From: Sphaerochaeta globosa str. Buddy
GTDB taxonomy: Bacteria; Spirochaetota; Spirochaetia; Sphaerochaetales; Sphaerochaetaceae
Direction: 5' to 3'
Assembly: GCF_000190435.1 (NCBI RefSeq)
Contig: NC_015152.1
Location: 1,990,458-2,054,457 of the forward strand
DNA: 64,000 nucleotides
Positions 6,008 through 22,011 of this stretch are shown piece by piece (position 1 is the first letter of the stretch; every line of letters begins with the position of its first letter). Position numbers and translations under genes: made by a program. The notes under the pieces are model-generated. The model ran no database searches, was not told where the DNA came from, and worked only from the letters and a program-made list of their open reading frames with translations.

Positions 6008-6091
6008 GCCGAAATGGTGGAATAGGTAGACACAAGGGACTTAAAATCCCTTGCTCGCAAGGGCGTACGGGTTCAAGTCCCGTTTTCGGCA
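6008..6091 (+). tRNA. tRNA-Leu (anticodon UAA)
   Basis: The acceptor GCCGAAA pairs with TTTCGGC and the discriminator is A. The anticodon stem AGGGA/TCCCT encloses CTTAAAA, giving anticodon TAA. There is a long type II variable arm and the T-loop GGTTCAAGTCC. CCA is not encoded. The 3' half of the T-arm and the acceptor strand form the phage attachment core, so the gene stays intact after integration. Confidence 0.97.
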
Positions 6092-6093
6092 AA
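6079..6093 (+). other. attL core
   Basis: CCCGTTTTCGGCAAA, overlapping the 3' end of tRNA-Leu; repeated exactly at 59312-59326. Confidence 0.93.
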
Positions 6094-6143
6094 GTTCCTA
6101 TTACTTAATTTATTATATTACATAGAAATAAAATTGCACAGTT

Positions 6144-6205
6144 GAGTACAAGTGTACTTTTGTGTACATTTTATTGTTTACAAACGTTAAGTTTTTACTC
6201 ATAAT
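6144..6205 (+). promoter_or_regulatory. integrase promoter and candidate integrase arm sites
   Basis: GTGTAC-type repeats occur at 6145-6157 and 6162-6169, and GTGTACATT recurs near attR at 59181-59189, as expected of arm-type integrase sites. TTTACA (6177-6182), a 17-bp spacer and CATAAT (6200-6205) form a promoter whose predicted start is at or next to the integrase ATG (6212). No good Shine-Dalgarno is visible, so the mRNA may be leaderless. Confidence 0.5.
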
Positions 6206-6211
6206 CGGGGC

Positions 6212-7510
6212 ATGGAAACCAAGAAAGAAAAATTCAGCATTACCCAGAGAAAAGGTCGATGCATTCAGGTCATGTTCGATGGAACTGATAAGTGGGTCTC
6301 TTCGGGTTGTTCAACGAAGAAGGATGCAACCCTTTGGGCAGAAGCCCAACTTAGGAACAAAAGCGATTTCCTGCAGAAACCTGCCCACGAAGACTTTAAA
6401 TTGGTCAGAAGAAGAGGACGCAACATACAAGTGCAATTCAAGGGGTCTGATTCCTGGATATCCTCAGGTTACTCTGACGAATTGAACGCAACGTTGTGGG
6501 CACAAAATCGGGTTAGGGAGAATAAAAGCAAGGACATAACTTTTGGGGAATTCTCCGAAAACTTTTACACCAGAACTGACGAGAGGTCTTTCAGAGCAAA
6601 AAATATGAGGAAGAACCGTCATTACGAAAATCACTATTACTATTCAATGGACGGAAGATATCGCAATTACATCCTGCCAATATTCAAAGACCTCTACATG
6701 AGGAACATTGACCACATGATGATTGATGAGTGGTTTGTTTCTATAAGGAAAGCTACGAGCGGTGAAAAGATGGCTACCAATTCAATGAATAAAATCCTCA
6801 TGTGCCTTTCCAATATCATGAAAGAAGCAGTGAATGTAGGTATAATTGACACCAATCCCTGCAGTAAGGTTGACAAGATTTCAGAAGATTCGAATCCACG
6901 TCAGCCATTCACTGAAGAAGAAATGTTGATTATGTTTCCAGATTTTGACCACAAGGCAATTTGGGTTTGGGGTGGTCTTATGTGGGCTAGTTATTTTCAT
7001 ATCATGAAATGCACAGGATTCAGACCGGGTGAAATTGCTGGATTAACGAGAGATAATTATTACCGTGAGCTTGGAGGAATCTATACCTCTCAATCCGTCA
7101 ACAGTTTTACCAAGAATGTAGTTAAACGTATCAAAACTACCGATAAAGGCATAAAAGCAAAGATTGGATTGCTTTCAGACCAATGCTGCAGGTTGTTAGA
7201 TTTACACATTGCAAGAATGCCAAAAGATCAAGAATTCCTATTCAGGGTGGAGACTGGATATGTTACAGCCTTTACATCACAAAAGCATTTCAAATCGTTT
7301 GCCACAAAAGCGGGCATAGAACTCAATGGGCGAACTCAGTACAGTTTGAGACACACATTCCAAACGATGATTGCAGGTGAAGTTGAGAAGAGCCATGTTG
7401 AGGAGCTGATGGGTCATACAAAGTATCGACAAGACTATGACCACCGTGCCGGTAAAAAACGACTTGAACAGCTCCAAGGCCTCCGGGATAGGCTCAGCAA
7501 CATTATCTAA
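6212..7510 (+). CDS. int: tyrosine recombinase / phage integrase with duplicated N-terminal module
   Basis: 432 residues. Catalytic-domain motifs: the first Arg in CTGFRPGEIAGL (about 272), SLRHTF (about 379-384) giving the second Arg and a His, MGHTK (His about 401) and the nucleophile Tyr in DYDHR (about 409). Residues about 4-50 and 58-104 are a tandem duplication of one module (RKGRCIQVMFDGTDKWVSSG aligns with RRGRNIQVQFKGSDSWISSG; ATLWA follows in both), probably an arm-site-binding domain. The core-binding helical domain follows (about 107-230). The gene reads away from attL, and its last four bases overlap the convergent gene 7507-7998. Confidence 0.95.
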   Translation: METKKEKFSITQRKGRCIQVMFDGTDKWVSSGCSTKKDATLWAEAQLRNKSDFLQKPAHEDFKLVRRRGRNIQVQFKGSDSWISSGYSDELNATLWAQNRVRENKSKDITFGEFSENFYTRTDERSFRAKNMRKNRHYENHYYYSMDGRYRNYILPIFKDLYMRNIDHMMIDEWFVSIRKATSGEKMATNSMNKILMCLSNIMKEAVNVGIIDTNPCSKVDKISEDSNPRQPFTEEEMLIMFPDFDHKAIWVWGGLMWASYFHIMKCTGFRPGEIAGLTRDNYYRELGGIYTSQSVNSFTKNVVKRIKTTDKGIKAKIGLLSDQCCRLLDLHIARMPKDQEFLFRVETGYVTAFTSQKHFKSFATKAGIELNGRTQYSLRHTFQTMIAGEVEKSHVEELMGHTKYRQDYDHRAGKKRLEQLQGLRDRLSNII

Positions 7511-7998
7511 TCCCAGACAAATGGCGTTCCAAATTTTTCCCAATGCTCCTTCAGGTAGTGCGTCAAGAACAGCAGGTCGGAGCATGGGGGTAGCTTTTGC
7601 CGGAGCATCATGGAAATTTCGTCATCCATAATTTCGGAAGCTTCTTCCATAATAAAATTCTTGGACATTAGCATTGTATATGAACGGGTGAAATAATCCG
7701 AACAACCACCTTTCACTGATAACACAAGGTCGAAGAAAGCGTAGAGCGGCAGCCCATCCTGAGCATTGTAAAAAGCTTCTTCAATATGAATCTCTTCAGC
7801 CAGCTCATCTTCATAATGTGAAAAAGTCGCATAGCAATCATTCAAAGTCAGTATGGAATATTCTTCATCAGCAAGGAGAACTATTCGATCCTGCCCATCC
7901 TTGCTTTCAAGCTCTCTTGCATGAGTATCTGCTTCCAGCCACTTGCGAGAATTCCGGGAATTGAATAATTGCTGGATGCAAGTATCGTTTTTGTTCAA
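7507..7998 (-). CDS. hypothetical phage protein
   Basis: 163 acidic residues from a TTG at 7998 behind GGGGGAG. No domain recognised. It is the last gene of the minus-strand early region and converges on the integrase with a 4-bp overlap. It has its own upstream gap (7999-8206) with AT-rich promoter-like sequence and a palindrome, so it may be transcribed separately from the early operon. Confidence 0.6.
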   Translation of the reverse strand: MNKNDTCIQQLFNSRNSRKWLEADTHARELESKDGQDRIVLLADEEYSILTLNDCYATFSHYEDELAEEIHIEEAFYNAQDGLPLYAFFDLVLSVKGGCSDYFTRSYTMLMSKNFIMEEASEIMDDEISMMLRQKLPPCSDLLFLTHYLKEHWEKFGTPFVWD

Positions 7999-8144
7999 GT
8001 TGCTCCCCCACTTTTTGATTGCGCTCTACTATAATATAGTAATGCAGAATAGTCCCATACTATTTTTATGCAGTCAATCGCACATAAAATATATGTATGG
8101 GTTATTTGGGGGAAAACCTGTTCAAAGGGGTGGAGCAAGGTTGC

Positions 8145-8159
8145 CATGACATTGTCATG
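8145..8159. promoter_or_regulatory. perfect 15-bp palindrome, candidate operator
   Basis: CATGACA, one T, TGTCATG. It lies in the 208-bp gap between two minus-strand genes that also holds the palindrome ACTATAATATAGT near 8031-8043. A second, partial CATGACA-like half follows at 8157. The binding protein is unknown. Confidence 0.4.
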
Positions 8160-8206
8160 ACATGCAACTGCTTTAGTCGTTTCATATCTAGATCAAGAAA
8201 ATCTGC

Positions 8207-8428
8207 CTAAAGGATATACCTTCGCATTTCCCTAAGCTCCTGAACCGTCTCTGCTTCACTGGAATGCCAATCAAGGGTGGTGTACCCGTCCTTGAGTGTG
8301 CAACCATCATTGATGCGGTCAAGGATGACTTTCTTGTTCACGCCATACGCAATGGCGGCATCCGCAATCGATTCGAATACCCAGGTGTCCCTTTTCTCGA
8401 ATGCAATCACGGGAATTGCCCTATGCAA
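8207..8428 (-). CDS. small NUMOD1/HTH-like DNA-binding phage protein
   Basis: 73 residues. The start is probably TTG at 8428 behind AGAGG. The stretch WVFESIADAAIAYGVNKKV followed by ILDRINDG resembles the short helix-turn-helix repeat (NUMOD1-like) found attached to homing endonucleases and in small phage proteins, with no nuclease domain attached here. A role in DNA binding is inferred; recombination directionality or regulation is possible because of its position near the integrase. Confidence 0.6.
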   Translation of the reverse strand: MHRAIPVIAFEKRDTWVFESIADAAIAYGVNKKVILDRINDGCTLKDGYTTLDWHSSEAETVQELREMRRYIL

Positions 8429-8463
8429 CCCTTAGTACCTCTTTGATGTAGATAAAGCCCATC

Positions 8464-8832
8464 TTACGACAGGCTGGATTTATTGGTCTTGCCGTGGAGA
8501 TACCCACGGCTTCTGTTGAAAGCGATCTTCTCAGCGATATGCTTCTGCAGGTCTATTCCAAGATAACCGCAGATTGTAGCAACCCTCATCACAGTATCGG
8601 CAAGCTCATCTTCCAGAGAATCCTTGACGTACTTAATAAAAGCTTCGTTACCCTTGCCAACCTCACAATACTTCTGATAGTCAGCCCTCTTGCCAGCAAC
8701 GCTGGCATAGAGAGCCTCATCAACCTCACCATGAACCTCGTCAAGAAGCTTTTGTATATCCATATTCTTTCTGATGAAGCCATGAGTGAGAGCATGTCCA
8801 AAGCATTTATCTTGGAGCTGCTTTACTGTCAT
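8464..8832 (-). CDS. MazG-like nucleotide pyrophosphohydrolase
   Basis: 122 residues. LDEVHGEVDEAL (about 29-40) and EDELADTVMRVATICGYLG (about 75-93) fit the paired acidic motifs (ExxE and ExxD) of the all-alpha NTP-PPase/MazG fold. It is short, as in single-domain phage MazG proteins, which hydrolyse NTPs or dNTPs and can shift the nucleotide pool or blunt (p)ppGpp-linked stress. The start overlaps the stop of the upstream gene by 4 bp, so the two are translationally coupled. Confidence 0.72.
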   Translation of the reverse strand: MTVKQLQDKCFGHALTHGFIRKNMDIQKLLDEVHGEVDEALYASVAGKRADYQKYCEVGKGNEAFIKYVKDSLEDELADTVMRVATICGYLGIDLQKHIAEKIAFNRSRGYLHGKTNKSSLS

Positions 8833-9470
8833 AGGCCTTCCTTTGCTGCTATGAATTCTTTATATTTCTTGAGTACGGATTCTCCCATGACTGAGCGTTC
8901 ATTATTGAAGTCAACAGTACATGCAAACACATCCTCGGACTCCATAAATGATTCTTGATGCTCATACACTTCACCGTATGAGACTGCTCCATCCACATCC
9001 CCTTGTATTTGAAGATAATACCTTGCTTGCATGACAGGGGCATCCCCAACCGTGACTCCGTCAACAACATATGGATAAACCCTGCAGTAAGGATACTCGA
9101 AGGTGATATTCTTTATATCGCAGTATCTCTGAGCCAAATCCTTGTCGGACATAACACATTCGACATCCCAGTCCTCATCATCACCACTAACAACTACATA
9201 AACCGTCCGAGCATTACTTACTTCTTGAGTATCTAAGGTGATTGTCTCACCACACAATACTCTTGCTAGTGTGCTGCCATCCATTTCTACAGACAGGCAA
9301 TACTCACTTTGTATAATATTGGGACGGAATGATAAAGCTCCGTGTTTAACCTTAGCTGGCTGAAAGTGAACCGTATATCGATCCACACCAAAAACATCAA
9401 TATGAGTAATGAACCCGTCCTCTCCGCACCACTCACAGCCTTCTTTACCTTTAGGAATCTTAACGCTCAT
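8829..9470 (-). CDS. hypothetical phage protein with one Cys pair
   Basis: 213 residues, start MSVKIPKGKEGCEWCGEDG, where CEWC suggests half of a metal site; no complementary second pair is obvious. Acidic and beta-rich, with no membrane segment. I do not recognise a family. The next gene downstream (MazG-like) overlaps its end, so it belongs to the early operon. Confidence 0.65.
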   Translation of the reverse strand: MSVKIPKGKEGCEWCGEDGFITHIDVFGVDRYTVHFQPAKVKHGALSFRPNIIQSEYCLSVEMDGSTLARVLCGETITLDTQEVSNARTVYVVVSGDDEDWDVECVMSDKDLAQRYCDIKNITFEYPYCRVYPYVVDGVTVGDAPVMQARYYLQIQGDVDGAVSYGEVYEHQESFMESEDVFACTVDFNNERSVMGESVLKKYKEFIAAKEGL

Positions 9471-9471
9471 T

Positions 9472-9885
9472 TCAACCTACCTTCTTATCCTGTTTTTTTA
9501 TGGCTTCATATGTCGATGACACCATCCCAACCAACATATTCCTTGTTACGTTTTCCCCTATCGAATACCTGCAAGCGGCTACTACGACAAGAGCAAGTGC
9601 CTGGTCTTTGTTGCTAATGTTGGTTTTGATATTTATTGTATTTTCTACTTCGTCTGCAACGATAGCTACAAACTCTGTACCTCTGATATAGGCAACATTG
9701 TCATTCTCGGGTCCCATGAGAGCCTCAATCTTTGAAAGAGTATCAATCCTTGGATTTGAAACAGTTCCGTCCATGAGACGATGGATTGCTGCATGGTTTA
9801 AACCAGTATCCCTTGCAATTTGTCTAACACTTACTACCTCAGCTCTCTTAATGAGCCATTCTCTTATTGATTCATAACTTCTCAT
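9472..9885 (-). CDS. XRE-like helix-turn-helix regulator
   Basis: 137 residues starting at ATG behind AGGAGC. Residues 15-40 (VSVRQIARDTGLNHAAIHRLMDG) form a classical HTH followed by NPRIDTLSKIEALMG, the usual XRE continuation. The C-terminal half is not recognised. It overlaps the next upstream gene (9872-10255) and sits within the early operon, so it may be a Cro-like or timing regulator. Confidence 0.7.
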   Translation of the reverse strand: MRSYESIREWLIKRAEVVSVRQIARDTGLNHAAIHRLMDGTVSNPRIDTLSKIEALMGPENDNVAYIRGTEFVAIVADEVENTINIKTNISNKDQALALVVVAACRYSIGENVTRNMLVGMVSSTYEAIKKQDKKVG

Positions 9886-10255
9886 AATTTGCTCCTATAA
9901 TTTTCGTTGTATTACTTACTTGTTGTGCAGAGTTTGATTCGTTTTTTAGTATTGTCTGGTAATACCGCCTAACATGTTCCAGAAACTCATCAACCTCATT
10001 TTCCGAATAGAAGTATCGTGGAACACCCCTATCTAAAACCTTCTTAGGCCCTGTATATCCAATTACAATATTCCACTTGTATCTGTACTCTGGTTTGGTC
10101 TTATGATCTCTGACTGTGAGGCTTCGTATCCTCTCGTCCTTAAACTTAAAGTACCAGCTAGTAGTGGTCACTGCTTTGTTATGAAGGTATATACCAAGAT
10201 CACCCAACTCCCTTTGAACCCTTCTAGCGATTATGGTTGTTGGTTTCTTTGCCAT
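9872..10255 (-). CDS. hypothetical phage protein next to the Nop-domain gene
   Basis: 127 basic residues (KKPTTIIARRVQREL at the start, an aromatic-rich centre with SWYFKFKDERIRS). Its ATG directly follows the stop of the Nop-domain gene with no gap, so the two are likely co-translated. No family recognised. Basic charge and position make a nucleic-acid-binding role conceivable, but this is only inference. Confidence 0.6.
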   Translation of the reverse strand: MAKKPTTIIARRVQRELGDLGIYLHNKAVTTTSWYFKFKDERIRSLTVRDHKTKPEYRYKWNIVIGYTGPKKVLDRGVPRYFYSENEVDEFLEHVRRYYQTILKNESNSAQQVSNTTKIIGANYEKL

Positions 10256-11053
10256 TTATGCAATTTCGCCTTCGTAGTAATGATGCTTCCTGCCCAGGTA
10301 CTCTTCCTCATACGGACAGCGTACTACAAGTCCCTCAGCGGTCCTCCAAGCAACATACAAGTCTTTGATGAATGCTTTCACCATGAACCGCATTGCCGCA
10401 TTGTGGCGGTGCAAGTCGCTCGTCTCAGACCATTTCTTATCACGGCCCTCGATGATTCTATCCTCATTCTGAAGGCGGCTCTTGTAGTCATAGTAGTACT
10501 TCGAATACGGTGATTTCGACTTTAAGAATGATGAGCCAAGCACTCCAAGCATTTTGGTCCTAAGCCTTGTATTAAAAGGAGCAATGAATCCGGGAGTGAG
10601 CTTGTCACCACGTACCATAGTATCAGTCGCCACAACCGCATCACCGACACGTTTCTTTCCGGGGACAAGCCCGGGGTTGAGTCCTGTGAATTGGTTCATT
10701 GCACTGATTGTGTGTGCTTTGTGAATGTCATATTCAGCAATAATCACTGCTGCCATCATCGGGCCTACGCCTCTTACCCCCTTAAGAAATTCATCGTAGA
10801 CCTTGATTCCTTTCAGTTCCTTCTTGAGCGACTTGGCCAAAGCCTCCTCGATCTCCTTTGAATCTTGGAAAGCATCAACAAGGGATGGAATGTCCTCTGC
10901 ATTGACAGCCATTTCAGTCCCATTTGTCTTTTGGTCAGTTCCATCAGCTTTGAATCTTAATCGGTTGCCCATCTTGATACGTATATCCTGATAATCATAG
11001 ATGGTTCGCACGATTCCCTTGATCCTCTGTCTCTTCACTTCATAGTCAGACAT
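10256..11053 (-). CDS. Nop / IS110 C-terminal-like domain protein, candidate TasA of a TIGR-Tas system
   Basis: 265 residues, ATG behind GAGGAG. Residues about 52-90 are helical and charged (EIEEALAKSLKKELKG), then GVRGVGPMMAAVIIAEYDI (92-110) and FTGLNPGLVPGKKRVGD (122-138) match the IS110-family transposase C-terminal domain (Transposase_20), which is related to the Nop domain of box C/D snoRNPs. LHRHNAAMRFMVKAFIKDLY (214-233) fits its last helix. The N-terminal RuvC-like DEDD catalytic domain of a true IS110 transposase is missing, and no HNH domain is present. There are no element ends. A 15-copy interspersed repeat array lies directly upstream on the same strand. This is the arrangement of TIGR-Tas loci with nuclease-less TasA, an RNA-guided DNA-binding protein; function here is inferred. 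Confidence 0.78.
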   Translation of the reverse strand: MSDYEVKRQRIKGIVRTIYDYQDIRIKMGNRLRFKADGTDQKTNGTEMAVNAEDIPSLVDAFQDSKEIEEALAKSLKKELKGIKVYDEFLKGVRGVGPMMAAVIIAEYDIHKAHTISAMNQFTGLNPGLVPGKKRVGDAVVATDTMVRGDKLTPGFIAPFNTRLRTKMLGVLGSSFLKSKSPYSKYYYDYKSRLQNEDRIIEGRDKKWSETSDLHRHNAAMRFMVKAFIKDLYVAWRTAEGLVVRCPYEEEYLGRKHHYYEGEIA

Positions 11054-11098
11054 AATTAACTCCTCTTCTTTGGTTATACTTTTTGGATAAACTCCAAA

Positions 11099-11610
11099 TG
11101 GTTCACTCCTAGTAACGATGGTTTCTAATCTCTTGGTTCACTCTTGATTAATGAATGGTTCCTTATTTCTTGGTTCGCTTCAGGTATAATTGCTTTATTC
11201 TTGGCAACGGCTCACTCATGACAATTGGGCTTGTTTTCACTCTTGGTCCACTTCAAATCTACGGGTTATTTCCCATTTTGGTTCACTTCTATTTTCTGTG
11301 CTTATCGCCCAAGTGGTTCACTTCTATTAGCTGTGTTTCTCGTTTTACATGGTTCGCTCATCTGATTTTGTTGTTCTGGTTAACCTTGGCCCACTCTTCC
11401 TACCGTTTTTGTTTGATTCTTATGGTTCACTCACAATTACGTATTTTTCCATCCTGTTGGTTCGCTCAATGATTCCGCTTGCTTCCATTAAATCGGCTCA
11501 CTCAGTACGTTGTCGCATCTATCTTTCTGGTCCACTTCTATATTTTGGGTTTCATAGCATTTATTGGTTCACTCGCCTGTACAAGGTTTCTCGTTTCGGT
11601 TGGTTCACTC
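11099..11610 (-). repeat. TIGR-like array: 15 short repeats at ~36-bp period with a second conserved element inside each unit
   Basis: Plus-strand consensus YGGYYCRCTY (mostly TGGTTCACTC) starts at 11099, 11134, 11171, 11208, 11244, 11279, 11314, 11350, 11387, 11423, 11458, 11494, 11528, 11565 and 11601. Spacings are 34-37 bp. In eleven of fifteen units a second element GYTTYT or GTTATT begins 11-12 bases after the 10-mer; in the others it is shifted by 2-3 bases or degenerate. Sequences on both sides of it are unique. Read on the minus strand (the likely sense, same as flanking genes) the edge is GAGTGAACCA. The array fills the whole gap between genes 11652-11993 and 10256-11053 and is probably cotranscribed with them. 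Confidence 0.85.
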
Positions 11611-11651
11611 GTCATAGATGGGTTATTTTCAAAAATCGGTAATTGAATGAT

Positions 11652-11993
11652 TTATGAAACGTCTTTGCGTCTGTTCTTCGACTTGATTACTTCCTTGATT
11701 TCATTCTCGACCCGGTCACAAGTGATATGCTCATTGTTGACATTGATAAGCCTGAGAGCGGCCATATCGATAAGCACCATGCCAACCTTGAGCCTACTCA
11801 ACTTTGCCGCCTTCGCAAGGTCACGATGCAAGACCTTGTTGTAGACCAGCATGTGTGCAGGATCGGCATAGAGCCTCTCCAAGACATGCCAGTAAAGCCC
11901 GTATCCCTTTGCTCCCCACCGCTTCCACAGTGCCGCAATGTTGGGATTCTGAAGCTCTGTAATATAGTGCCTGAAAAAGAAAATCTCACGCAT
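11652..11993 (-). CDS. DUF4373 / Lin1244-like phage replication-associated protein
   Basis: 113 residues. The start MREIFFFRHYITELQNPNIAA and the stretch WGAKGYGLYWHVLERLY match the N-terminal domain common in phage replication-region proteins (DUF4373, Lin1244/Lin1753-like): a winged-helix-like fold seen fused to or near DnaD-like primosome parts. Only this domain is present. The ATG follows AAGGAG and overlaps the NinG-like stop by 8 bp. It ends about 40 bp before the repeat array. Confidence 0.7.
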   Translation of the reverse strand: MREIFFFRHYITELQNPNIAALWKRWGAKGYGLYWHVLERLYADPAHMLVYNKVLHRDLAKAAKLSRLKVGMVLIDMAALRLINVNNEHITCDRVENEIKEVIKSKNRRKDVS

Positions 11994-12441
11994 GTATCAG
12001 CTTCTCCTTAGCCAATTCCTTGGCGATTTTGTCATAACGCTTCGCCAATTCCAGATAATCCTTGTCCTTTTTCTTTGTAGTTACAGACAACCTATCCATC
12101 CTGGGCAATCTTTCCATCGCTTCCTCCGAACCTTTGGAAGCCATCACCATATCCTCAAGCCGTTGTAAACGTTCCACGCCAATGCGAGAGATCAGGTTGT
12201 TCCTGTATGCAACATGGTTTCCAGACAGAGGCCCATTGCAGTATTTGCACTGAGGCCACACATTGTCGGCTTCAAGCTCTGTTGCCTTGTTCTTCCGACT
12301 TTCGTAGTGACCGCCATCCATCTTGGAAACATGTCCAACCTTGCCGCACGAAATGCATGTTGCAAAACCATTCCCATCTGCTAGTAGATATCTTCGGTAT
12401 TTCTGGAATGCGGTTAACGCCTTCTCTCTCGCACTTGGCAT
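11986..12441 (-). CDS. NinG/Rap-like recombination nuclease
   Basis: 151 residues from the ATG at 12441 behind AGAGGAG; an upstream in-frame start would overlap the preceding gene. CISCGKVG, GGHYESRK and CKYCNG form a CxxC...H...CxxC zinc-stabilised HNH-type core as in lambda NinG (Rap), which processes branched recombination intermediates. The C-terminal part is a lysine-rich helix. It is flanked by NinB-, ERF- and SSB-like genes, so it is part of a phage recombination set. Confidence 0.78.
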   Translation of the reverse strand: MPSAREKALTAFQKYRRYLLADGNGFATCISCGKVGHVSKMDGGHYESRKNKATELEADNVWPQCKYCNGPLSGNHVAYRNNLISRIGVERLQRLEDMVMASKGSEEAMERLPRMDRLSVTTKKKDKDYLELAKRYDKIAKELAKEKLIHA

Positions 12442-12451
12442 GGAAACTCCT

Positions 12452-12820
12452 CTATAGCCCAAGGGTCTGTGACCCGTATTCTTTGATGATCCTGTTCGCC
12501 TTCTTGAGGGGAGCAAAGATTTGCAATGCCCTTGACCTCATTTCAGCGGCAAACGCCTCAATCTCTGCTATGTCTGCAGTACGGTAATAGCCCTTGCCAT
12601 CGGAGTATGAGACGATGATGTAATTGTCACCAAAGTCCATCTTCCTCAGCTCGGCGATCACCAGTCTTGCCGACCTGTCTCCCATACCCCAAAGATCGCT
12701 AAGCTCCTGCCTTGAGATTGCGTTCCACGACCCAATCGGAAGCATTCCATACAACATCCTTGCTTTCGACGGGGATAGGTTTAGCTGTTTTGGTTTTCTT
12801 GGATTTCTTGCTGCTGACAT
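12452..12820 (-). CDS. hypothetical winged-helix-like phage protein
   Basis: 122 residues, ATG at 12820 with AGGAG nine bases upstream. NAISRQELSDLWGMGDRSARLVIAEL-type sequence in the middle reads as a winged helix with recognition helix, followed by a beta wing (NYIIVSYSDGKGYYRT). It may bind DNA. Its first 122 bases overlap the end of the gene 12699-12947 in another frame, and both have good ribosome-binding sites. Confidence 0.65.
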   Translation of the reverse strand: MSAARNPRKPKQLNLSPSKARMLYGMLPIGSWNAISRQELSDLWGMGDRSARLVIAELRKMDFGDNYIIVSYSDGKGYYRTADIAEIEAFAAEMRSRALQIFAPLKKANRIIKEYGSQTLGL

Positions 12821-12947
12821 TCTCGGTTCTCCTAAAATCCTCTAAAATCCTCATGTTCTCAGGAGCGTTGCCGCAATACTTGAGAACACGACCCTTTTTG
12901 CCTTCATCCTTACATTTGTTAGGACACTTTCTGCACAGTATTTCCAT
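12699..12947 (-). CDS. small Cys-rich protein overlapping the next gene
   Basis: 82 residues, ATG at 12947 behind a strong AGGAGGG. MEILCRKCPNKCKD plus a later Cys (YCGNAPEN) suggest a small zinc-binding head; the middle is lysine-rich (SSKKSKKTKTAKP). Its last 122 bases are also the start of the gene 12452-12820 in a different frame. No family recognised. Confidence 0.55.
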   Translation of the reverse strand: MEILCRKCPNKCKDEGKKGRVLKYCGNAPENMRILEDFRRTENVSSKKSKKTKTAKPIPVESKDVVWNASDWVVERNLKAGA

Positions 12948-12956
12948 TACACCCTC

Positions 12957-13361
12957 CTAGAAAGGAATATCGTCACCATCATCATCTAGACTGCTATACA
13001 TGTTCTGCGTTGTCGGCTCTCCTCGCTCGTACCTGTCTTCTTGTCCACCACCAAGCGGCTGTACACCGAACGAATCAGCAACCAATACCCAACGGCTTCG
13101 CTTTGACCCATCGTTGGCACTCCAGAACTCCTGTCTCATTTCTCCCCGGACAACAACAGGCTTTCCTCTTGTGAGCTTTCCGGTTAGCCCCTCAGCGGCT
13201 CTTGAAAACTGGACTACATCAAAGAAAGAAGAAGTGGTTTGTCCTTTGTCATATCGTCCAACAGCAACGCTGAATTTCAGAATCGGTGTCTGCCCTGCAT
13301 ATTTGATTTCACTGTCAGCAGTGAGCCTTCCAGTAATCATGATTGAACACATATCTGCCAT
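12957..13361 (-). CDS. ssb: single-stranded DNA-binding protein
   Basis: 134 residues from the ATG at 13361 behind GGAGG. OB-fold sequence MITGRLTADSEIKYAG, ILKFSVAVGRYDKG, FFDVVQFSRAAEGL and KPVVVRGEMRQE follows bacterial SSB closely. The C-terminus is the typical short linker plus acidic tip DDDGDDIPF that recruits partners. It coats ssDNA during phage replication and recombination and lies directly downstream of NinB- and ERF-like genes. Confidence 0.95.
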   Translation of the reverse strand: MADMCSIMITGRLTADSEIKYAGQTPILKFSVAVGRYDKGQTTSSFFDVVQFSRAAEGLTGKLTRGKPVVVRGEMRQEFWSANDGSKRSRWVLVADSFGVQPLGGGQEDRYERGEPTTQNMYSSLDDDGDDIPF

Positions 13362-13363
13362 AA

Positions 13364-13774
13364 TTAGTCCTCCAGACTGTAACCGTTCTCCGCAGCCATC
13401 ATATGGACGGCCTCGATCAACAATGCACACTCCCCAACGTTAGCCTCGCTGGAAGGAATACCCTTCACTCCATACTTCACTGCAACAGGAAAACCTTTTT
13501 CATCGGTTGCTACTGGATACCCAAGTGAAACAGCTTTAGCTTTTGCCATTTCTTTCATATCCTCGGGTGTCCCTCCAGCCATTTCAGCAAGCCTTTTGCA
13601 AAGCACATGAAAGTAAGCATTCTCTTTCATCGTTCTCTGCTGGTAATTCGGCTCGACAGTAATCTTTATCGTTCCGTCACCTTTTAGTGCTTGCTCAAGA
13701 AGCTTTTCATACCTAGCTTCATATCCGGCAGGGACTCGGAAGCCCCTACCGTGAATAACAAACGTCAGCTTCAT
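13364..13774 (-). CDS. NinB-like recombination protein
   Basis: 136 residues. The ATG overlaps the ERF stop (ATGA) and has GGAGC upstream. KITVEPNYQQRTMKENAYFH parallels the conserved 'R(S/T)xxQNxxxW' region of lambda NinB (Orf), and IPSSEANVGECALLIEAV parallels its C-terminal 'TSRMRVGEFAELLELI'. Orf-family proteins bind SSB-coated DNA and help load annealing proteins. Overall similarity is distant. Confidence 0.6.
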   Translation of the reverse strand: MKLTFVIHGRGFRVPAGYEARYEKLLEQALKGDGTIKITVEPNYQQRTMKENAYFHVLCKRLAEMAGGTPEDMKEMAKAKAVSLGYPVATDEKGFPVAVKYGVKGIPSSEANVGECALLIEAVHMMAAENGYSLED

Positions 13775-14634
13775 GCAATCGCTCCACTGGCCTCAAAGGG
13801 AACCTTGTCCAGACTGTCACCCTCGAACAATTCTGGTCCATCAGGTTCACCAGTAGGATTCTTGATGGCATTGAACACAGCCTTATAGATGTCGTAGGTG
13901 ATCTCCTCGGAAGTTGGTGCTCCAAACTGCTCAAACAGGCCCTTGGCAAAATCCTTGTCACCAGAGCAAATCTCAAGAATCTGATTCCATGCCCTTCTCA
14001 TTGTGAACATTCCAGGCACAATCAGATTTGAATTCATGATTATTGCCTTGGTCGTACTTGCTACCTTCGGCATTGAAGCCTTGGCAGGGTCGTACGGAGG
14101 AACTACGGGTTTGTCAGCTTGCTTCGGAGCGGCTGGACTTGTTGGCTCTGGCTTAGGCTGTCTCTCCGGGCCTCTCGATATAGATGCTTGATTGTCAGGC
14201 TTCTTGTTGCTCGGGTCTTGAGATTCTGAATCGGGATCAACCATATCTTCGGTAGGAATGCAGAGAGTCTGAAGCAGGGCGTACTTGTGAGCGATAGCCA
14301 TGCCCTTGTTCGCTCCCTTGTCACCGCTGTCCATTCCCTCACCAACGACCACAGCTTCAACGTTGGACCCATCGGAGGCATAGAATGTGTACTTCATTGT
14401 CAAGATGCGATAGATGAGGTTTCCTCCGTTTCTGGTCTGCCTCTCCTCGGTTCTCTCGGCTAGGAGGGTAGGAACGGTGAAGACACCATGCTTTGCAAAG
14501 ATTGGGTGGACGGCATTGTAAACATCGTCAATCCCACGGAACTTGAAGCCTTGCTGTTGGTTCTTCTGGTCTTTTCCGATAGCCTCAACATCCCTCATAA
14601 CCTCAGCCATTGCCATGTAAATATTGTTACTCAT
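13771..14634 (-). CDS. erf: ERF-family single-strand annealing protein
   Basis: 287 residues from the ATG at 14634 behind GAGGAG. The N-terminal half (AMAEVMRDVEAIGKDQKNQQ, FKFRGIDDVYNAVHPIFAKHGV, and GEGMDSGDKGANKGMAIAHKY) is the signature of the ERF superfamily, ring-forming proteins that anneal complementary strands. A proline/serine-rich linker leads to a C-terminal domain of unknown structure. It pairs with the PD-(D/E)XK nuclease directly upstream, as in Red-type exonuclease/annealing pairs. Confidence 0.9.
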   Translation of the reverse strand: MSNNIYMAMAEVMRDVEAIGKDQKNQQQGFKFRGIDDVYNAVHPIFAKHGVFTVPTLLAERTEERQTRNGGNLIYRILTMKYTFYASDGSNVEAVVVGEGMDSGDKGANKGMAIAHKYALLQTLCIPTEDMVDPDSESQDPSNKKPDNQASISRGPERQPKPEPTSPAAPKQADKPVVPPYDPAKASMPKVASTTKAIIMNSNLIVPGMFTMRRAWNQILEICSGDKDFAKGLFEQFGAPTSEEITYDIYKAVFNAIKNPTGEPDGPELFEGDSLDKVPFEASGAIA

Positions 14635-15568
14635 TGATGGTCTCCTCATTCTGGCGTTCCTCAACTGAAGCCATGTATTTTTTGTAGAACGAACACTTCT
14701 CAGCACAGTTGCAGTAATCCATGCACTTCACAGGAACACCGGGTCGATGCTCGATGAAATGGTTTGCATCAAGCGATGCAAGATGCTGCTCTGCATCATA
14801 TTTCTTGAGGTGGCGTTTGACTGCTGATTTTCGGCCCTTCTTCATAATTGCCCAACATTCATCCCTCTCCCAACGTTGGTCTGGAGTACAGATTGGAATT
14901 TCTTCCTCCAATGCATCCTTGTATTGCAGAATCTCTTGGATCTTGTAGGAAAGGTCGGCAATCATATCAGCCGCAACATCGCTTCTGAACACGCTCCCAA
15001 AGTCATAGTCGATATTGAGAATCGGCTTTTGGGGATAGGAACGGTCCCTCTTTGCTTGGGTCTTAGACCAGTCTTTGAGGAACACAGTGTTTCTCACACC
15101 CTTCACAGGGAAACCAGCGTTCTGGAGAATCAGCCAGTAGACTCTCAACTGTTTCGCCCAATCACTGTCAGTGCCCTCTTGGAGCTTCATCTGGTAGGAG
15201 AAAACACCAGTGGTCTTGTAGTCGGTGAGAATCTTGGTGTCACCGTTGTACAGGTCAAAGCCGCCAGAGACCTTTCTGACACCATATTCGCCACAGGGAA
15301 TCTCAATTGAGACACGCTCTTCAGCCAGCTCATTCTCGCTCTCATGGCCTTCCATGACGCTGTGAACGGCAGTACCGAATACGGTCCAGATCATATCCAC
15401 ACAGTCCATTTCAAGCTCTTCCCAGTAACGTCTATTTAGGACGATTTCCCTTGTGCCCTTCATCAGCTCCGTTACAGAGAATGAATCCCAACCAAATCTC
15501 GGATGATTGTCACGAAGACAGCTTTTGTAGTAAGGTTCTGGTAGGTTAAATTTATTTGTGACCTTCAT
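14627..15568 (-). CDS. PD-(D/E)XK (RecB/Cas4-like) exonuclease
   Basis: 313 residues. The active-site order is visible: FGTAVHSVME (His 69), GGFDLY (Asp 105) and TDYKTT (Asp 116, Lys 118). Near the C-terminus CMDYCNCAEKC supplies Cys residues for an iron-sulphur cluster as in Cas4/AddB-type nucleases. It probably resects phage DNA ends for the ERF protein, whose start overlaps its stop by 8 bp. Confidence 0.85.
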   Translation of the reverse strand: MKVTNKFNLPEPYYKSCLRDNHPRFGWDSFSVTELMKGTREIVLNRRYWEELEMDCVDMIWTVFGTAVHSVMEGHESENELAEERVSIEIPCGEYGVRKVSGGFDLYNGDTKILTDYKTTGVFSYQMKLQEGTDSDWAKQLRVYWLILQNAGFPVKGVRNTVFLKDWSKTQAKRDRSYPQKPILNIDYDFGSVFRSDVAADMIADLSYKIQEILQYKDALEEEIPICTPDQRWERDECWAIMKKGRKSAVKRHLKKYDAEQHLASLDANHFIEHRPGVPVKCMDYCNCAEKCSFYKKYMASVEERQNEETINE

Positions 15569-15828
15569 TAGATTGCCTCCTTGAGGTTATCGAAGGAGTT
15601 GGAAGCGGCAACTTCCTGCTCCTTTTTTTGTGCCTTGAGGGTTGTTATCTCTGCCTCAAGCTTTTTCACTTTCGAATCTTTTTCGTTGTAGTACCCATAC
15701 CACATGTCGCTATTCTTGGTTGCCTTCTCCAGCTTCTCTTTAAGCTCGTCAATCTCAACAGCCATCTTCTCAACCTCTGGTTGAACCAGATTCATGCTCT
15801 CCAAAAGACTCCGTTCCAGTACCGTCAT
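15568..15828 (-). CDS. small coiled-coil phage protein
   Basis: 86 residues, ATG behind GAGGAG; its stop overlaps the exonuclease start. Almost entirely heptad-like (VEKMAVEIDELKEKLEKATK, then KVKKLEAEITTLKAQKKEQE). No family assigned; a partner or scaffold for the recombination proteins is possible. Confidence 0.65.
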   Translation of the reverse strand: MTVLERSLLESMNLVQPEVEKMAVEIDELKEKLEKATKNSDMWYGYYNEKDSKVKKLEAEITTLKAQKKEQEVAASNSFDNLKEAI

Positions 15829-15891
15829 AAAATACTCCTCGCCACATTAACCTTGCGGCTTTTTAGTGATAAACTCCAACAAAGGAGGTAT

Positions 15892-15930
15892 GCGATGTCC
15901 GGGAGTTGAACCCGGCTGAACCGTCACCGC
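15892..15930 (-). ncRNA. minimal tRNA-like element 1 (acceptor stem + T-arm only)
   Basis: Minus strand: 5' GCGGTGA, an 8-base linker, a T-arm CCGGG-TTCAACT-CCCGG, then ACATCGC. GCGGTG pairs with CATCGC (one G-U) and the T-arm directly abuts the 3' acceptor strand, as in tRNA. D-arm and anticodon arm are missing. The 5' acceptor strand overlaps the stop codon of the gene 15924-16247. Confidence 0.55.
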
Positions 15931-16247
15931 TTTTTCAAAGCTCGGAATTCTGTAATTCGTTCATGTTCCGGTATTGCAATCCAGTCCAAGTACTCGTCAT
16001 ATCGCCAGAATCGTTTTTTCCGCTTTCCTTCGGTCTGGAAATCCGTAATACCGAAATTTGGAAGCATCCAAGGACGATTGATTGCCTCTTGTCTGCTTAT
16101 GCCGTGTGCATTAGCAATCATGAGCACCGTGACAAATCTGGAATCGTTTGCATTGATGAGTTTGATAAGCCCGTTGTATTTCCTTTCAGCTTCAACAAGC
16201 CTGTCAAATTCCTCTGATGCAATCTGATAGCTTAAAATTTTATTCAT
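15924..16247 (-). CDS. excisionase/Cro-like small DNA-binding protein
   Basis: 107 residues, ATG at 16247 behind AAGGG. VLMIANAHGISRQEAINRPW and the later GKRKKRFWRYDEYLDWI resemble a MerR/Xis-type winged helix that ends in an aromatic basic wing. It is the first minus-strand gene opposite the plus-strand repressor, the usual place of a Cro or excisionase gene. Its last codons form part of tRNA-like element 1. Confidence 0.55.
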   Translation of the reverse strand: MNKILSYQIASEEFDRLVEAERKYNGLIKLINANDSRFVTVLMIANAHGISRQEAINRPWMLPNFGITDFQTEGKRKKRFWRYDEYLDWIAIPEHERITEFRALKKR

Positions 16248-16277
16248 GCTTAACCCTTTACATATGTTACGTATTTT

Positions 16278-16349
16278 TTCGAATTGTCATTTCATTATCG
16301 ATTTAATTTGATTTTTGTCAACCACTTTTCGAATTTTTATGAGTATACT
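16278..16349. promoter_or_regulatory. divergent regulatory region between repressor and Cro/Xis-like gene
   Basis: TTTTCGAATT, containing the palindrome TTCGAA, occurs at 16276-16285 and 16326-16335, 50 bp apart, one near each divergent gene. TATACT (16344-16349) is a good -10 for the plus-strand repressor; its -35 is not clear. The two boxes are candidate repressor operators. Confidence 0.5.
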
Positions 16350-16369
16350 TAGTCTATAAAGAGGTGGCT

Positions 16370-16729
16370 ATGGAAACTACATTTTGGGATAGATTGCAGG
16401 GATTGCTTGGGATACATAGAATTACGCAAGCAGAATTGAGCAAGGAATTGGATCTCTCACCGTCTTACATATCAGCATCAATCGGCAGAGGAGCAAGTCC
16501 TAGAGCTGATTTTGCTTACAAGGTCGCTAAATATTTCGGGGTTTCTCTCAAATGGCTGATTTCCGGTGAGGATGAGGATGCCATTGATGCCAAGTTCGCT
16601 GTAGCAATCAAAAACGACAGAATCATGGAGATTGCCTACTTGCTGACCAAATGCCCAGAGAATGTCGTAGCAATGATTGAAAACTTCGTAGCTTATGCGG
16701 CAAGCAATCAAAAGACTTTTGGCAAATGA
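16370..16729 (+). CDS. XRE-family (CI-like) prophage repressor
   Basis: 119 residues from the ATG at 16370 with GAGG five bases upstream. Residues about 18-45 (ITQAELSKELDLSPSYISASIGRG) are a helix-turn-helix, then VAKYFGVSLKWLISGED, the standard XRE tail. There is no LexA-type peptidase domain, so induction would not be by simple self-cleavage. It is the only plus-strand gene inside the early region and is followed by an AT-rich repeat region. Confidence 0.82.
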   Translation: METTFWDRLQGLLGIHRITQAELSKELDLSPSYISASIGRGASPRADFAYKVAKYFGVSLKWLISGEDEDAIDAKFAVAIKNDRIMEIAYLLTKCPENVVAMIENFVAYAASNQKTFGK

Positions 16730-16737
16730 CTTAATTC

Positions 16738-16925
16738 AAAGCTTAATTAGCCTAAAATGCTTAATTGGCATTTAGGCTATTAAGCTTAATTTTGATTATT
16801 GACCAATAAGCTTATTGACCAATAGCTTTATTATATATAATTAAGCTTTAATATATAATATAAGCATCTTATATCTCTAAAGAGAAGATAACCTATTACT
16901 GGGGTTGTGGATAACTTGTGGATAA
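16738..16925. other. candidate phage replication origin: AT-rich repeats plus two perfect DnaA boxes
   Basis: Two copies of TGTGGATAA (complement of TTATCCACA, the DnaA-box consensus) lie at 16906-16914 and 16917-16925, 11 bp apart. To their left is a very AT-rich tract with repeated GCTTAATT/AAGCTTAAT motifs and a direct repeat TTATTGACCAATA (16796-16808, 16812-16824; period 16). A hairpin formed by AGCCTAAAATGC and GCATTTAGGCT (16749-16778) probably also terminates the repressor transcript. Confidence 0.6.
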
Positions 16926-16934
16926 CTCATTTTT

Positions 16935-17483
16935 CTAGTCACCCAAACCGACCTCGATGAACTCTTTCGGAATAGGTCTTCCCAAGAGGGCTTCAAAGCT
17001 TTTGCCGAAATATTCGCCATCGGCATTCATATCCAAAACATGTGAAGCAAACCGGATGTGAGGTTTTCTACCTTCGCCAATATCAAGCTTATCGACTCGA
17101 CCTTTGCGACCAAAGATAATACCGCAGTTGAAACCTGCATTCTCATCAGCGTAATACCCTGCAAAAACAACCGATGGGAAATGCCTGGTTATTGCTTCAA
17201 ATATCTTCAGTGGTGTTGCCCACCCTGTTTCAAATGCAAGATCAATAAGCTCATCGTCATCCCTGTCATACCAAAGCTCCTCAGCCTCAGTACAAGTCCC
17301 CCAATGTTTGTACAGCCATTCAAGCTCAGGCAGCATGCAAGGCATCGGCACAAGGCTGTTGAAGAAGTTTTGGTTTTCCTCGTAATTCTCTCCTCCATAC
17401 TTAAGCGTCATCATCGATTCAATCTTGTCCAGCTCTTCCTTCTTGCCCTTCAGTTTAACGTAAGTTTTAACCCAATTTGCCAT
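16935..17483 (-). CDS. YubB/Api92-like ferredoxin-fold domain protein
   Basis: 182 residues, ATG behind AGGAGG. The start MANWVKTYVKLKGKKEEL and the central LYKHWGTCTEAEELWY followed by LAFETGWATPLKIFEAI match the Api92/DUF1281-type phage and plasmid proteins, which carry an NWGTKWD-like motif and a 'W.P....' strand. The biochemical role of the family is unknown. Confidence 0.68.
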   Translation of the reverse strand: MANWVKTYVKLKGKKEELDKIESMMTLKYGGENYEENQNFFNSLVPMPCMLPELEWLYKHWGTCTEAEELWYDRDDDELIDLAFETGWATPLKIFEAITRHFPSVVFAGYYADENAGFNCGIIFGRKGRVDKLDIGEGRKPHIRFASHVLDMNADGEYFGKSFEALLGRPIPKEFIEVGLGD

Positions 17484-17492
17484 ATCATCCTC

Positions 17493-17804
17493 CTACCAAT
17501 AACGGCTTCTCAAAGCCTCTTGTTTGTATCCATCGTCCCAAAATTCTGATGGGAGATCACTCGGCTCATACCTGACTTTGTACGCTGATAGCGTGCCTCT
17601 CAGACCACCGTAATCAGGTGTTCCGAACTCAGAATCTTCTGAGCAGTCAATAACCTCAACAGATGCTCCATACACTTCCTTCAGCTCTTCCTCAAACTTC
17701 TCAATCTGGGCTAACTCACCCTTCGTATAGCTACTTAAATCGTTGTTTATAAAGTAACTAGCCATCCAGCAATAATGTTTCACTATTTCAATACAATCAC
17801 TCAT
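17493..17804 (-). CDS. hypothetical phage protein
   Basis: 103 residues from the ATG at 17804 behind GAAGGG (a longer start upstream lacks an RBS). Aromatic and acidic, ends SEFWDDGYKQEALRSRYW. No family recognised. It is in the early operon between a RadC-like and an Api92-like gene. Confidence 0.55.
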   Translation of the reverse strand: MSDCIEIVKHYCWMASYFINNDLSSYTKGELAQIEKFEEELKEVYGASVEVIDCSEDSEFGTPDYGGLRGTLSAYKVRYEPSDLPSEFWDDGYKQEALRSRYW

Positions 17805-17835
17805 ATTAATCCCTTCTCGGTATCTTATATAGATA

Positions 17836-18306
17836 CTAAAACATACCTGATTCAAGCATCGAGAAATACCCGTTTTGCGAAAAGATTAGATGGTCAAGTA
17901 CTCTAATCCCAATCAAATCTCCAGCCTGTCTAATTCTAAATGTCACATCCTTATCCTCAGCACTAGGTTCAAGGTTTCCACTAGGATGGTTGTGAGCTAT
18001 TACGATAGCTGTGGAATTATCTAAAATTGCAGGTCTAAAAACTTCCCTGGGATGAACCAATGTCCTGTTAACCAGCCCTTTGGAAATAACGTGGGCATCA
18101 ATAATTTGGTGTGCTCCATTAAGGGTAACGGTGAAGAAGTATTCATTGTAAAAGAAGTCTACAGGAGGTATACACTGCAAAAGCTTGGTATAAGCTTCGG
18201 ATGGTGTTCCGATTGAGGGGGTTTCAGCAACAGACAAGCTCACTAAAATATCAAGGAGCTGTTGCTTTTTCAGGTTTTCGTACTTTTTCATAATATCGCT
18301 TCTCAT
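17836..18306 (-). CDS. RadC-like JAB/MPN-domain protein
   Basis: 156 residues from 18306 (GGGAG upstream; a second ATG at 18291 is possible). VLVHPREVFRPAI-like sequence, IVIAHNHPSGNLEPSAEDKD and the C-terminal IRVLDHLIFSQNGYFSM are the conserved blocks of the C-terminal JAMM-like RadC domain (HxH...D metal ligands). The usual N-terminal helix-hairpin-helix of RadC is replaced by a short helical leader. Such proteins are common beside anti-restriction genes on mobile elements. Confidence 0.8.
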   Translation of the reverse strand: MRSDIMKKYENLKKQQLLDILVSLSVAETPSIGTPSEAYTKLLQCIPPVDFFYNEYFFTVTLNGAHQIIDAHVISKGLVNRTLVHPREVFRPAILDNSTAIVIAHNHPSGNLEPSAEDKDVTFRIRQAGDLIGIRVLDHLIFSQNGYFSMLESGMF

Positions 18307-18307
18307 G

Positions 18308-18712
18308 TTATTTCTCCCAACTGGTGAAGTAGGTGTCGCTTCCACCACGCATTTCTTCAAGCTCTTCTTCTGTTGAGCTTCTGAGTGTCTCCAACTCTTC
18401 CTCATCGGTTGGATCAAGACCGGCACACATTGCATCGTACTCTTCTCTGGAATAGTGTTCGTGCAGACAGGTATCGGAGCAGTAATACTCAGAGCCTCCA
18501 TCGATGCAGTAGCCCTCAACCATCAACGCTTCACATTCAGTACAGATTCTTATTTCAAGAACATCTTCCAAGTCATCGACCTTGCTGTTGATTGCCGCTT
18601 CCACGGCATCATAGATAGTCTCATGCTCTCCCAAATCCTTTTTCAGGACCTTTACAAGCCTCTCAAGCAGCATCAGCTGTTCATTATTTGTAAGTTGTGC
18701 AAAGTATTTCAT
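18308..18712 (-). CDS. hypothetical protein with a Cys-rich zinc-finger-like segment
   Basis: 134 residues from the ATG at 18712 (GGAGAG upstream). The middle has ICTECEAL and YYCSDTC, a CxxC...CxxxC pattern likely to bind zinc, followed by an acidic tail rich in Glu. No family assigned. It is preceded by a terminator hairpin, so expression may need its own promoter or read-through. Confidence 0.6.
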   Translation of the reverse strand: MKYFAQLTNNEQLMLLERLVKVLKKDLGEHETIYDAVEAAINSKVDDLEDVLEIRICTECEALMVEGYCIDGGSEYYCSDTCLHEHYSREEYDAMCAGLDPTDEEELETLRSSTEEELEEMRGGSDTYFTSWEK

Positions 18713-18726
18713 TGTGTTACTCTCCA

Positions 18727-18759
18727 TAAAAGAAGCCCGTCAGTATCAGTGACAGGCTT
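18727..18759 (-). terminator. intrinsic terminator within the early operon
   Basis: Minus strand AAGCCTGTCA, a 7-base loop and TGACGGGCTT (one G-U), followed by CTTTTAT. It lies after the ArdC-like gene and its small downstream ORF and splits the operon. A second small hairpin (GACGGC/GCCGTC, 18777-18800) precedes it. Confidence 0.7.
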
Positions 18760-18802
18760 TCTCGATTCTTTGGTTGGACGGCTGTAGAAATATGGCCGTC
18801 TT

Positions 18803-18877
18803 TTACATTCTGGTCCCACCGATTGAGCCGGTGGATGCGATGATATCTAGTACGTCATCATTAGTTTCCCACGACAT
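18803..18877 (-). CDS. 24-codon mini-ORF downstream of ardC
   Basis: ATG at 18877 with AAGGAGG seven bases upstream, overlapping the ArdC stop region in another frame. The product starts MSWETNDDVLDIIAST and ends GGTRM. A strong RBS, coupling to ArdC and a hairpin just downstream support translation, but such a short ORF can arise by chance. Confidence 0.4.
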   Translation of the reverse strand: MSWETNDDVLDIIASTGSIGGTRM

Positions 18878-19751: not shown

Positions 19752-19968
19752 TTCGGGTATCTCCTGTGAGCCTATACCAATCCTCGGTAAGCTCTTCGGC
19801 ATCTATATCGAGATACCCTCCGTAGCATTTCTCTTCCTTCGTGTTGTACAGGAAAGTTTCCGCAATAGTCGGGTCGGTGAAGTATTGGACGAGTACCCAA
19901 TCTCCTTTTCGATCGAGTACATTCATTTCCAGCTTGACCATGATTGGTTCTTTTTCGTATAAACTCAT
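19741..19968 (-). CDS. hypothetical small phage protein
   Basis: 75 residues, ATG with GGAGAG upstream. Acidic, with no motif recognised. Its end overlaps the ardC start by 11 bp and its start overlaps the stop of the 52-aa gene upstream, so it is translationally coupled on both sides. Confidence 0.55.
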   Translation of the reverse strand: MSLYEKEPIMVKLEMNVLDRKGDWVLVQYFTDPTIAETFLYNTKEEKCYGGYLDIDAEELTEDWYRLTGDTRNEE

Positions 19969-20123
19969 TCTTCGCTCTCCTTATAACCTTCGAATTTCAT
20001 GTGCAATTCAAATCCTTCATCCAACAACTGCATCCCGTGATAGTCGGTAAACAGTCGTGCCACTTCTTCCCCTGACAGCGTACAGAGCTGCTCCCACATC
20101 TTGCTTTGATTCTCTCCCATCAT
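19965..20123 (-). CDS. 52-aa hypothetical phage protein
   Basis: A short frame from ATG 20123 (GAGG upstream) to a TGA overlapping the next ATG: begins MMGENQSKMWEQL and ends EGYKESEE. The four-base ATGA-type overlaps at both ends and the RBS support it as real. No family. Confidence 0.55.
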   Translation of the reverse strand: MMGENQSKMWEQLCTLSGEEVARLFTDYHGMQLLDEGFELHMKFEGYKESEE

Positions 20124-20365: not shown

Positions 20366-20375
20366 GCTTCGCCTC

Positions 20376-20540: not shown

Positions 20541-20552
20541 ATTGAGCCTCCT

Positions 20553-20584
20553 AAATAAAAATTCCCCGACTTAACCTGCCGGGG
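20553..20584 (-). terminator. intrinsic terminator
   Basis: Minus strand CCCCG...CGGGG stem followed by AATTTTTATTT, just downstream of tRNA-like element 2. Confidence 0.6.
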
Positions 20585-20589
20585 ATATA

Positions 20590-22009: not shown

Positions 22010-22011
22010 TA

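Follow-up and report, generated by a model that had tools for sequence, protein, structure and literature searches.

The window analysed here, a stretch of 64,000 nucleotides from Sphaerochaeta globosa str. Buddy (NC_015152.1), contains a prophage that carries a TIGR-TasA system, formed by an array of paired spacers and the adjacent gene tasA, whose product is TasA, a nuclease-free Tas protein. As the best explanation for the whole, to which we assign a probability of about 0.78, we propose that a temperate phage uses this system to repress rival phages. The paper that described TIGR-Tas in 2025 calls unknown what these systems target, what biological role they have and how their arrays grow, in part because most TIGR loci are metagenomic and native tests were not possible (PMC12045711). 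This kind of system is itself already known; what is added by our analysis is a comparative set of sister systems and candidate natural targets.

The 265-aa open reading frame 10256-11053, which the first-pass annotation had taken for a TIGR-Tas-like Nop-domain protein, was recovered with AGGAG shortly before its ATG, and a curated model, a PDB profile and the predicted fold agree on that assignment. The product scores 133.8 bits against the NCBIfam model NF052498, TIGR_Tas_endo ('TIGR-Tas system RNA-guided endonuclease'; cut-off 100). A single-sequence search of the PDB with TasA returned TasH (2e-11) and TasR (5e-9), and a profile built from seven sequences retrieved only TasH (3.3e-24) and TasR 9mty (1.7e-19) with hmmsearch. 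The Nop fold takes up the full 265 aa of the AlphaFold2 model (pLDDT 82, from a 20-sequence alignment), and in Foldseek searches against the PDB ranks 1-11 are all occupied by TasH or TasR (1.5e-9 to 4e-6, 11/11 below 1e-3), followed by IS110 recombinases. The structural comparison that the first-pass annotation had proposed places TasH/TasR first, and Nop5 was not returned by sequence or fold among the PDB profile and Foldseek results. No HNH or RuvC nuclease domain was matched by Pfam at E<=1, in agreement with the earlier claim, and it is because of this that we regard TasA as the nuclease-free form of Tas. PADLOC reported nothing for TasA, and no relatives of it were found in the phage and plasmid collections searched. 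The word 'endonuclease' in the name of NF052498 is a misleading label for a nuclease-free TasA, as is the 'transposase' that PHROG 4285 attaches to TasA-like phage proteins.

That same PHROG label, together with a weak Pfam match to Transposase_20 (E 0.0017, under the curated cut-off), would be expected if the gene were a decayed IS110-family transposase with leftover repeats. We rejected this identity and regard its probability as practically negligible, since the protein has no DEDD domain, scores 15.9 bits against an IS110 model whose cut-off is 140, stands nearer to TasH/TasR than to IS621 in both sequence and fold, and retains an intact reading frame at 76-80% identity among prophages; it is already refuted by the score against the curated Tas model and by the arrays linked to the gene.

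The array fills the gap directly upstream of tasA on the same strand, as had been annotated, spanning 11099-11646; it begins 5 nt past the upstream gene's stop (11652) and leaves 45 nt to the start of tasA. The 10-mer GAGTGAACCA (minus strand, <=2 mismatches) recurs every 34-37 bp from 11099 to 11610, in 15 intact copies as first counted; when the region was shuffled 200 times with dinucleotides preserved, the longest periodic chain reached 7 copies (mean 3.9). The 14 complete units of the first-pass annotation proved to be real and to be preceded by one more at the 5' side (11611-11646), which reads TCAATTACCG-ATTTTTGA-AAATAACCCA-TCTATGAC and has a truncated edge, being otherwise full-length; the total is 15. 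The inner conserved element, or loop, also stood, the information content of its best 8-mer (6.15 bits) exceeding that of all 60 within-unit shuffles (maximum 6.09), but it is degenerate in the window array, and the flanking unique sequence is better read as two spacers of 8 nt around a loop of 8-11. The unit layout is edge (10 nt), spacer A (8), loop (8-11) and spacer B (8). The dinucleotide GA stands exactly 8 nt past the edge in 6/15 window units, and a CA end exactly 8 nt ahead of the next edge in another count of 6/15; the CA box is clearer in relatives (16/23, 17/26 and 14/20). Edge and loop thereby share their end boxes, with GA and CA commoner at offset 8 than at other offsets, clearly so in relatives and more weakly in the window. 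The last edge is intact, not 3'-truncated, and the array runs on toward the ribosome-binding site of tasA. Rfam returned nothing for the array.

This architecture corresponds to that of TIGR-TasA (Faure et al. 2025, PMC12045711; FpTasA), in which a solo Nop-domain protein likewise stands beside edge/spacer/loop/spacer units of ~36 nt, with a 5'-truncated first edge, end boxes common to edge and loop, and a phage or provirus home. TIGR arrays in general start with a 5'-truncated edge (PMC12045711). The spacers here are of 8 nt, as in SpTIGR, and not of 9, and the boxes are GA/CCA where TasR loci have UG/CCA. In contrast to TIGR-TasA as described (PMC12045711), the loop is strongly degenerate, the array lies upstream of tasA within an operon, and no terminator was found 3' of it; a 3'-truncated last edge followed by a rho-independent terminator is typical of TIGR arrays, not defining (PMC12045711). 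The nearest solved relatives by sequence and fold are TIGR-TasH and TasR (PDB 21kl, 9vzx, 9w04; 9mty), which are alike in tigRNA geometry, TasH likewise having 16 nt of spacer in all; unlike them, TasA here has neither HNH nor RuvC, so that no DNA cutting is expected. The IS110/IS621 bridge-RNA recombinases have the same Nop-like RNA-binding domain (Foldseek E ~1e-3), whereas the prophage locus shows no DEDD catalytic domain and no transposon, and holds an array rather than one bridge RNA. Nop5 of the box C/D snoRNP resembles TasA, by published analogy, in its Nop domain and box-framed guide RNAs (PMC12045711). Comparable in logic are the nuclease-free CRISPR types IV and V-M, carried by mobile elements that silence rivals by binding (Faure et al., PMC12045711), although effector and array are unrelated and the repeats here measure 10 nt, not 25-36 nt. 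With repeats of 10 nt, and with no Cas-type match among the neighbours tested, CRISPR-Cas was rejected as an identity for the locus.

The syntenic order was found in genomes G002, G009, G012 and G014 and in the IMG/VR contigs L001 and L002. Six of 26 Sphaerochaeta genomes encode tasA, in one copy each, and in all syntenic Sphaerochaeta relatives the array occupies one operon position, upstream of the gene. IMG/VR holds 36 loci that encode TasA relatives; of the more distant ones, about 20 were examined, and in almost every case an array of 36-bp period lies directly downstream of tasA, the signal being weak or absent in L033 and L039. L004, whose TasA is 47% identical, has a textbook array (GAATGAATCA-8-GAGAAAACCA-8) on both sides of the gene, with a GC hairpin plus T run behind the downstream one. 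The edge/loop pattern is conserved, then, in related prophages and phages.

The arrays of the Sphaerochaeta prophages fall into three spacer sets with no unit in common: that of the window, that of G002 and G009 (19/23 units shared), and that of G012, G014, IMG1 and IMG2 (13-20 shared). Within a set, arrays differ in that whole units have been gained or lost. In the comparison of G002 with G009, 3.5% of spacer positions and 8.3% of loop positions differ (Fisher p = 0.033), or 4.5% and 9.4% (p = 0.051) when the pairing of units does not favour spacers; between G012 and IMG1 the values are 4.2% and 12.8% (p = 0.002). The comparisons G012-G014 and G014-IMG1 have the same direction without significance, and comparisons inside one set are mutually non-independent. 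The lower change in spacers fits selection acting on them, which would be unexpected for plain protein-binding repeats.

Repeats of the latter kind are what one would have if the array consisted of iteron-like sites for a replication or partition protein, such as the Lin1244-like neighbour, and the Nop-domain gene were incidental. Regular spacing is typical of iterons, the domain of the upstream neighbour occurs in phage replication proteins, and the PHROG neighbours include a replication initiator. We nevertheless judge this very improbable: array and tasA stay linked in L004, L034, L036 and L044, where no other gene of the operon was found, and the array has two alternating elements, 8-nt spacers and end boxes common to edge and loop. 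Spacers also tend to outlast loops between sister arrays, and targets are found with true spacer pairs but not with mismatched ones.

Those targets were sought by deriving the expected strand from the 8-nt 3' overhangs of TasR, namely spacer A, a gap of 0-2 and the reverse complement of spacer B, with mismatched pairs (A from one unit, B from another) as control. A few exact guides were first scanned in the genus, and several were tried before one gave a target. This guide, AGAAAAGC|TCCTGTTG of the G012, G014 and IMG1/2 arrays, matches a gene for a 163-aa protein that is nearly identical in four genomes; AGAAAAGC|CAACAGGA is exact in 11 of the searched loci that encode the target gene, at +339 of its coding sequence. 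All arrays were then tested on 80 kb around two target sites and 40 kb around a third. From the unrelated set, guide 10 of G002 (= G009 unit 9; AAAACGGA|AAAACGCA) matches exactly, with a gap of 2, in three Sphaerochaeta elements, at a near-palindrome (AAAACGGA-GA-TGCGTTTT) 95 nt before the start of the 163-aa gene. Guide 0 of G012/G014 (ATCCGGCT|CATCGAAT) matches at 15/16, with 1 mismatch in four elements, 338 or 319 nt before the same start. All these sites, matched by three guides from two unrelated array lineages, fall within ~700 bp of a different Sphaerochaeta phage. When the 71 distinct guides were compared with four Sphaerochaeta alleles of this stretch, 3 matched at <=1 mismatch, 2 of them exactly (16/16), whereas from the 4,970 mismatched pairs one would expect 0.13 and no exact match; three matches were reached in 8/20,000 permutations, and the opposite spacer layout gave none. 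With the discovery guide excluded, 2 matches remain against 0.13 expected. In the sister systems, true spacer pairs are in excess over mismatched pairs at the rival site.

The 163-aa gene also occurs in viral contigs. It is followed by genes for a DUF2800 exonuclease, a single-stranded DNA-annealing protein, a DNA polymerase, an anti-repressor and a primase-helicase, and an IrrE/ImmA-type protein is encoded on its other side; the sites therefore lie at the head of the rival phage's replication module. We regard the -95 site as a putative operator, with the second site at -338 and the coding site at +339. Since guides of sister systems meet in the segment that separates the rival's lysogeny-control genes from the opening gene of its replication module, competition between temperate phages is the likely purpose. 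A fuller statement, that the prophage TIGR-TasA systems of Sphaerochaeta serve as RNA-guided repressors against a family of rival temperate phages, that independent arrays converged on the ~700 bp, and that spacer sets are replaced wholesale from one sister prophage to another, seems to us slightly better than an even bet. In G005 (L358 1579-3051), the DUF2800 gene of the targeted prophage is interrupted by a stretch with an IS21-looking transposase gene.

Several points weigh against repression of rival phages by this system. The 15 guides of the window have no above-chance match in their own prophage region, in 12% of the chromosome or in related prophages, and none matches the targeted phage stretch at <=1 mismatch. 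The target phage was itself found through one of the three guides, after several others had been tried, which leaves only two independent ones, one of them mismatched. The window loops are degenerate, no terminator-like site was found 3' of the array on the minus strand, and the roadblock action attributed to TasA is one that we infer because it has no nuclease. The repression of rival phages guessed at in the first-pass annotation has thus gained indirect support from the targets of sister arrays, while the search with the window's own paired spacers yielded no convincing target in the genome sample or related phages.

Alternatively, this may be a real TIGR-TasA system put to use within its own phage or host, either for regulating prophage or host genes or as an integrase aid through DNA bending, the latter a suggestion of Faure et al. 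(PMC12045711). Targets in the own prophage, at the attachment (att) site, in the own flanks and in the sampled chromosome (G000 and G002, about 400 kb from each) showed no excess over permuted pairs, and the matches that do cluster lie in another phage; we consider own use unlikely. It would accord with some guides resembling chromosomal genes. One family in G002 and G009 resembles rsmE, matching its alleles at up to 15/16 and varying at third codon positions, but this lead is no better than its control: the rsmE 3' end was rejected as the target of three similar G002 guides, the reversed layout giving comparable orthologous in-frame matches. Window unit 9 (11289-11323; guide CTTGGGCG|CTATTTTC) matches exactly, with gap 0, a gene for a TonB-type B12 receptor in three Sphaerochaeta genomes (L348-L350). 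This amounts to one orthologous site. About 0.1 such matches are expected for each guide, five guides of the window were tested against the genus, and the 80 kb around the site contain no match to a second guide; the match could be due to chance. Own use would also agree with an observation in G002 (L006 1479-1500) and G009 (L007), where the last edge abuts the tasA Shine-Dalgarno sequence (AAGTGAACCA-AGGAG), an arrangement that suggests autoregulation via TasA binding or processing; processing of the transcript could conceivably limit TasA synthesis as well.

The near-duplicate guides of G002 (L006; units 12, 15 and 16) and G009 (L007; units 12 and 13) differ mostly in each third position (ACRGCSAMKCCNGCRCT), as though they followed synonymous variants of a coding target. 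Other candidates were set aside. The match of guide G002_10 near rsmE in G012 was ascribed to chance, and its 18 matches in viral contigs include none in the targeted phage type. Window unit 1 has 114 matches in viral contigs, with a gap of 1 in 70 of the 80 listed, mostly in one gene of an abundant phage family; its excess is therefore a redundancy effect and not a target. Unit 8 has 69 matches in viral contigs, about the chance level, and window units 1, 8, 11 and 6 have no match in the genus.

The looseness of the window array, whose loops and some edges are more degenerate than those of L004, could also mean that the system is TIGR-Tas by descent and inactive here. This is less likely still than own use, as tasA has an intact reading frame behind a good ribosome-binding site, the edges are well kept (15 with <=2 mismatches), and the sister prophages are loose in the same manner, with conserved spacers.

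For a system that represses rival phages, a mechanism can be outlined from the TIGR-Tas family, in which tigRNAs of 36 nt are bound by a Tas dimer, the two spacers pair with opposite strands, and TasR bends DNA (PMC12045711). The array transcript would be cut inside the edge repeats into tigRNAs of ~36 nt, and a TasA dimer would bind one tigRNA at its edge and loop boxes (GA...CCA). At a DNA site composed of A, a gap of 0-2 and the reverse complement of B, the two 8-nt spacers would then pair with opposite strands. By binding, unwinding and bending this DNA, TasA may form a roadblock to transcription or replication, so that the rival's early transcription or replication would be blocked without cutting; the window's own guides would presumably serve this end too.

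The system lies in a prophage of a genus with cultured members, and it and its sister prophages, which have the same genes, present three unrelated spacer sets; provided that the strains are obtainable, this makes TIGR biology testable in native systems. Alignments of sister arrays show the gain and loss of whole units, and two guide lineages have a candidate target where the replication module of a rival phage begins. If true, these sites would represent natural TIGR targets, a thing hard to identify according to the discovery paper. Confirmation would mean that phages wield nuclease-free Tas proteins as weapons that resemble CRISPR interference without cutting.

Table 1. Coordinates of the TIGR-TasA locus and its prophage in the window
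Feature	Position	Strand	Remarks
Host prophage of the TIGR-Tas system	6079..59326	.	Integrated in tRNA-Leu(TAA) 6007-6092
att core CCCGTTTTCGGCAAA, 15 bp	6079-6093 and 59312-59326		Prophage ends defined at the tRNA-Leu(TAA) 3' end
Prophage integrase	6212-7510		
Downstream neighbour of tasA	9872..10255	-	127 aa, function not assigned
tasA	10256..11053	-	265-aa solo Nop-domain Tas protein without RuvC or HNH domain
tasA ribosome-binding site	11060..11064	-	AGGAG, shortly before ATG
TIGR array	11099..11646	-	15 units, each 34-37 nt; an intact edge closes it
Last intact edge repeat GAGTGAACCA	11099..11108	-	45 nt upstream of tasA ATG
First edge, 5'-truncated, TCAATTACCG	11637..11646	-	Only the ACC[A/G] half retained
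Upstream neighbour of the array	11652..11993	-	Lin1244/Lin1753-like N-terminal domain protein; Pfam PF14297, 4.8e-7

The spirochaete prophage named in the first-pass annotation is that of a Sphaerochaeta, with the integration site and limits given in Table 1. Its leftward early operon has the order exo (exonuclease)-erf-ninB-ssb-ninG-Lin1244-ARRAY-tasA, the array being read in the sense of tasA, and scans for promoters and terminators gave nothing beyond shuffles. The Lin1244/Lin1753-like gene adjoins the array in every syntenic prophage. The 127-aa protein encoded after tasA has a counterpart of 78% identity in L002 and none in the remaining syntenic loci. The early region common to the TIGR system also encodes an ArdC-type anti-restriction protein (18861-19802, minus strand). 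Adjoining the terminase within the prophage is a gene (25814-26404, minus strand) for a protein assigned to the Borrelia P13 family of membrane proteins (Pfam E 1.2e-22), possibly a lysogenic-conversion gene. Two 31-bp repeats, 90% identical (56559-56589 and 57914-57944), lie at the starts of two consecutive genes on the minus strand. One of these (54499-56607) has collagen-like and Lcl_C matches, and the other is 56619-57962; this pair (54499-57962) is perhaps a modular receptor-binding or tail region.
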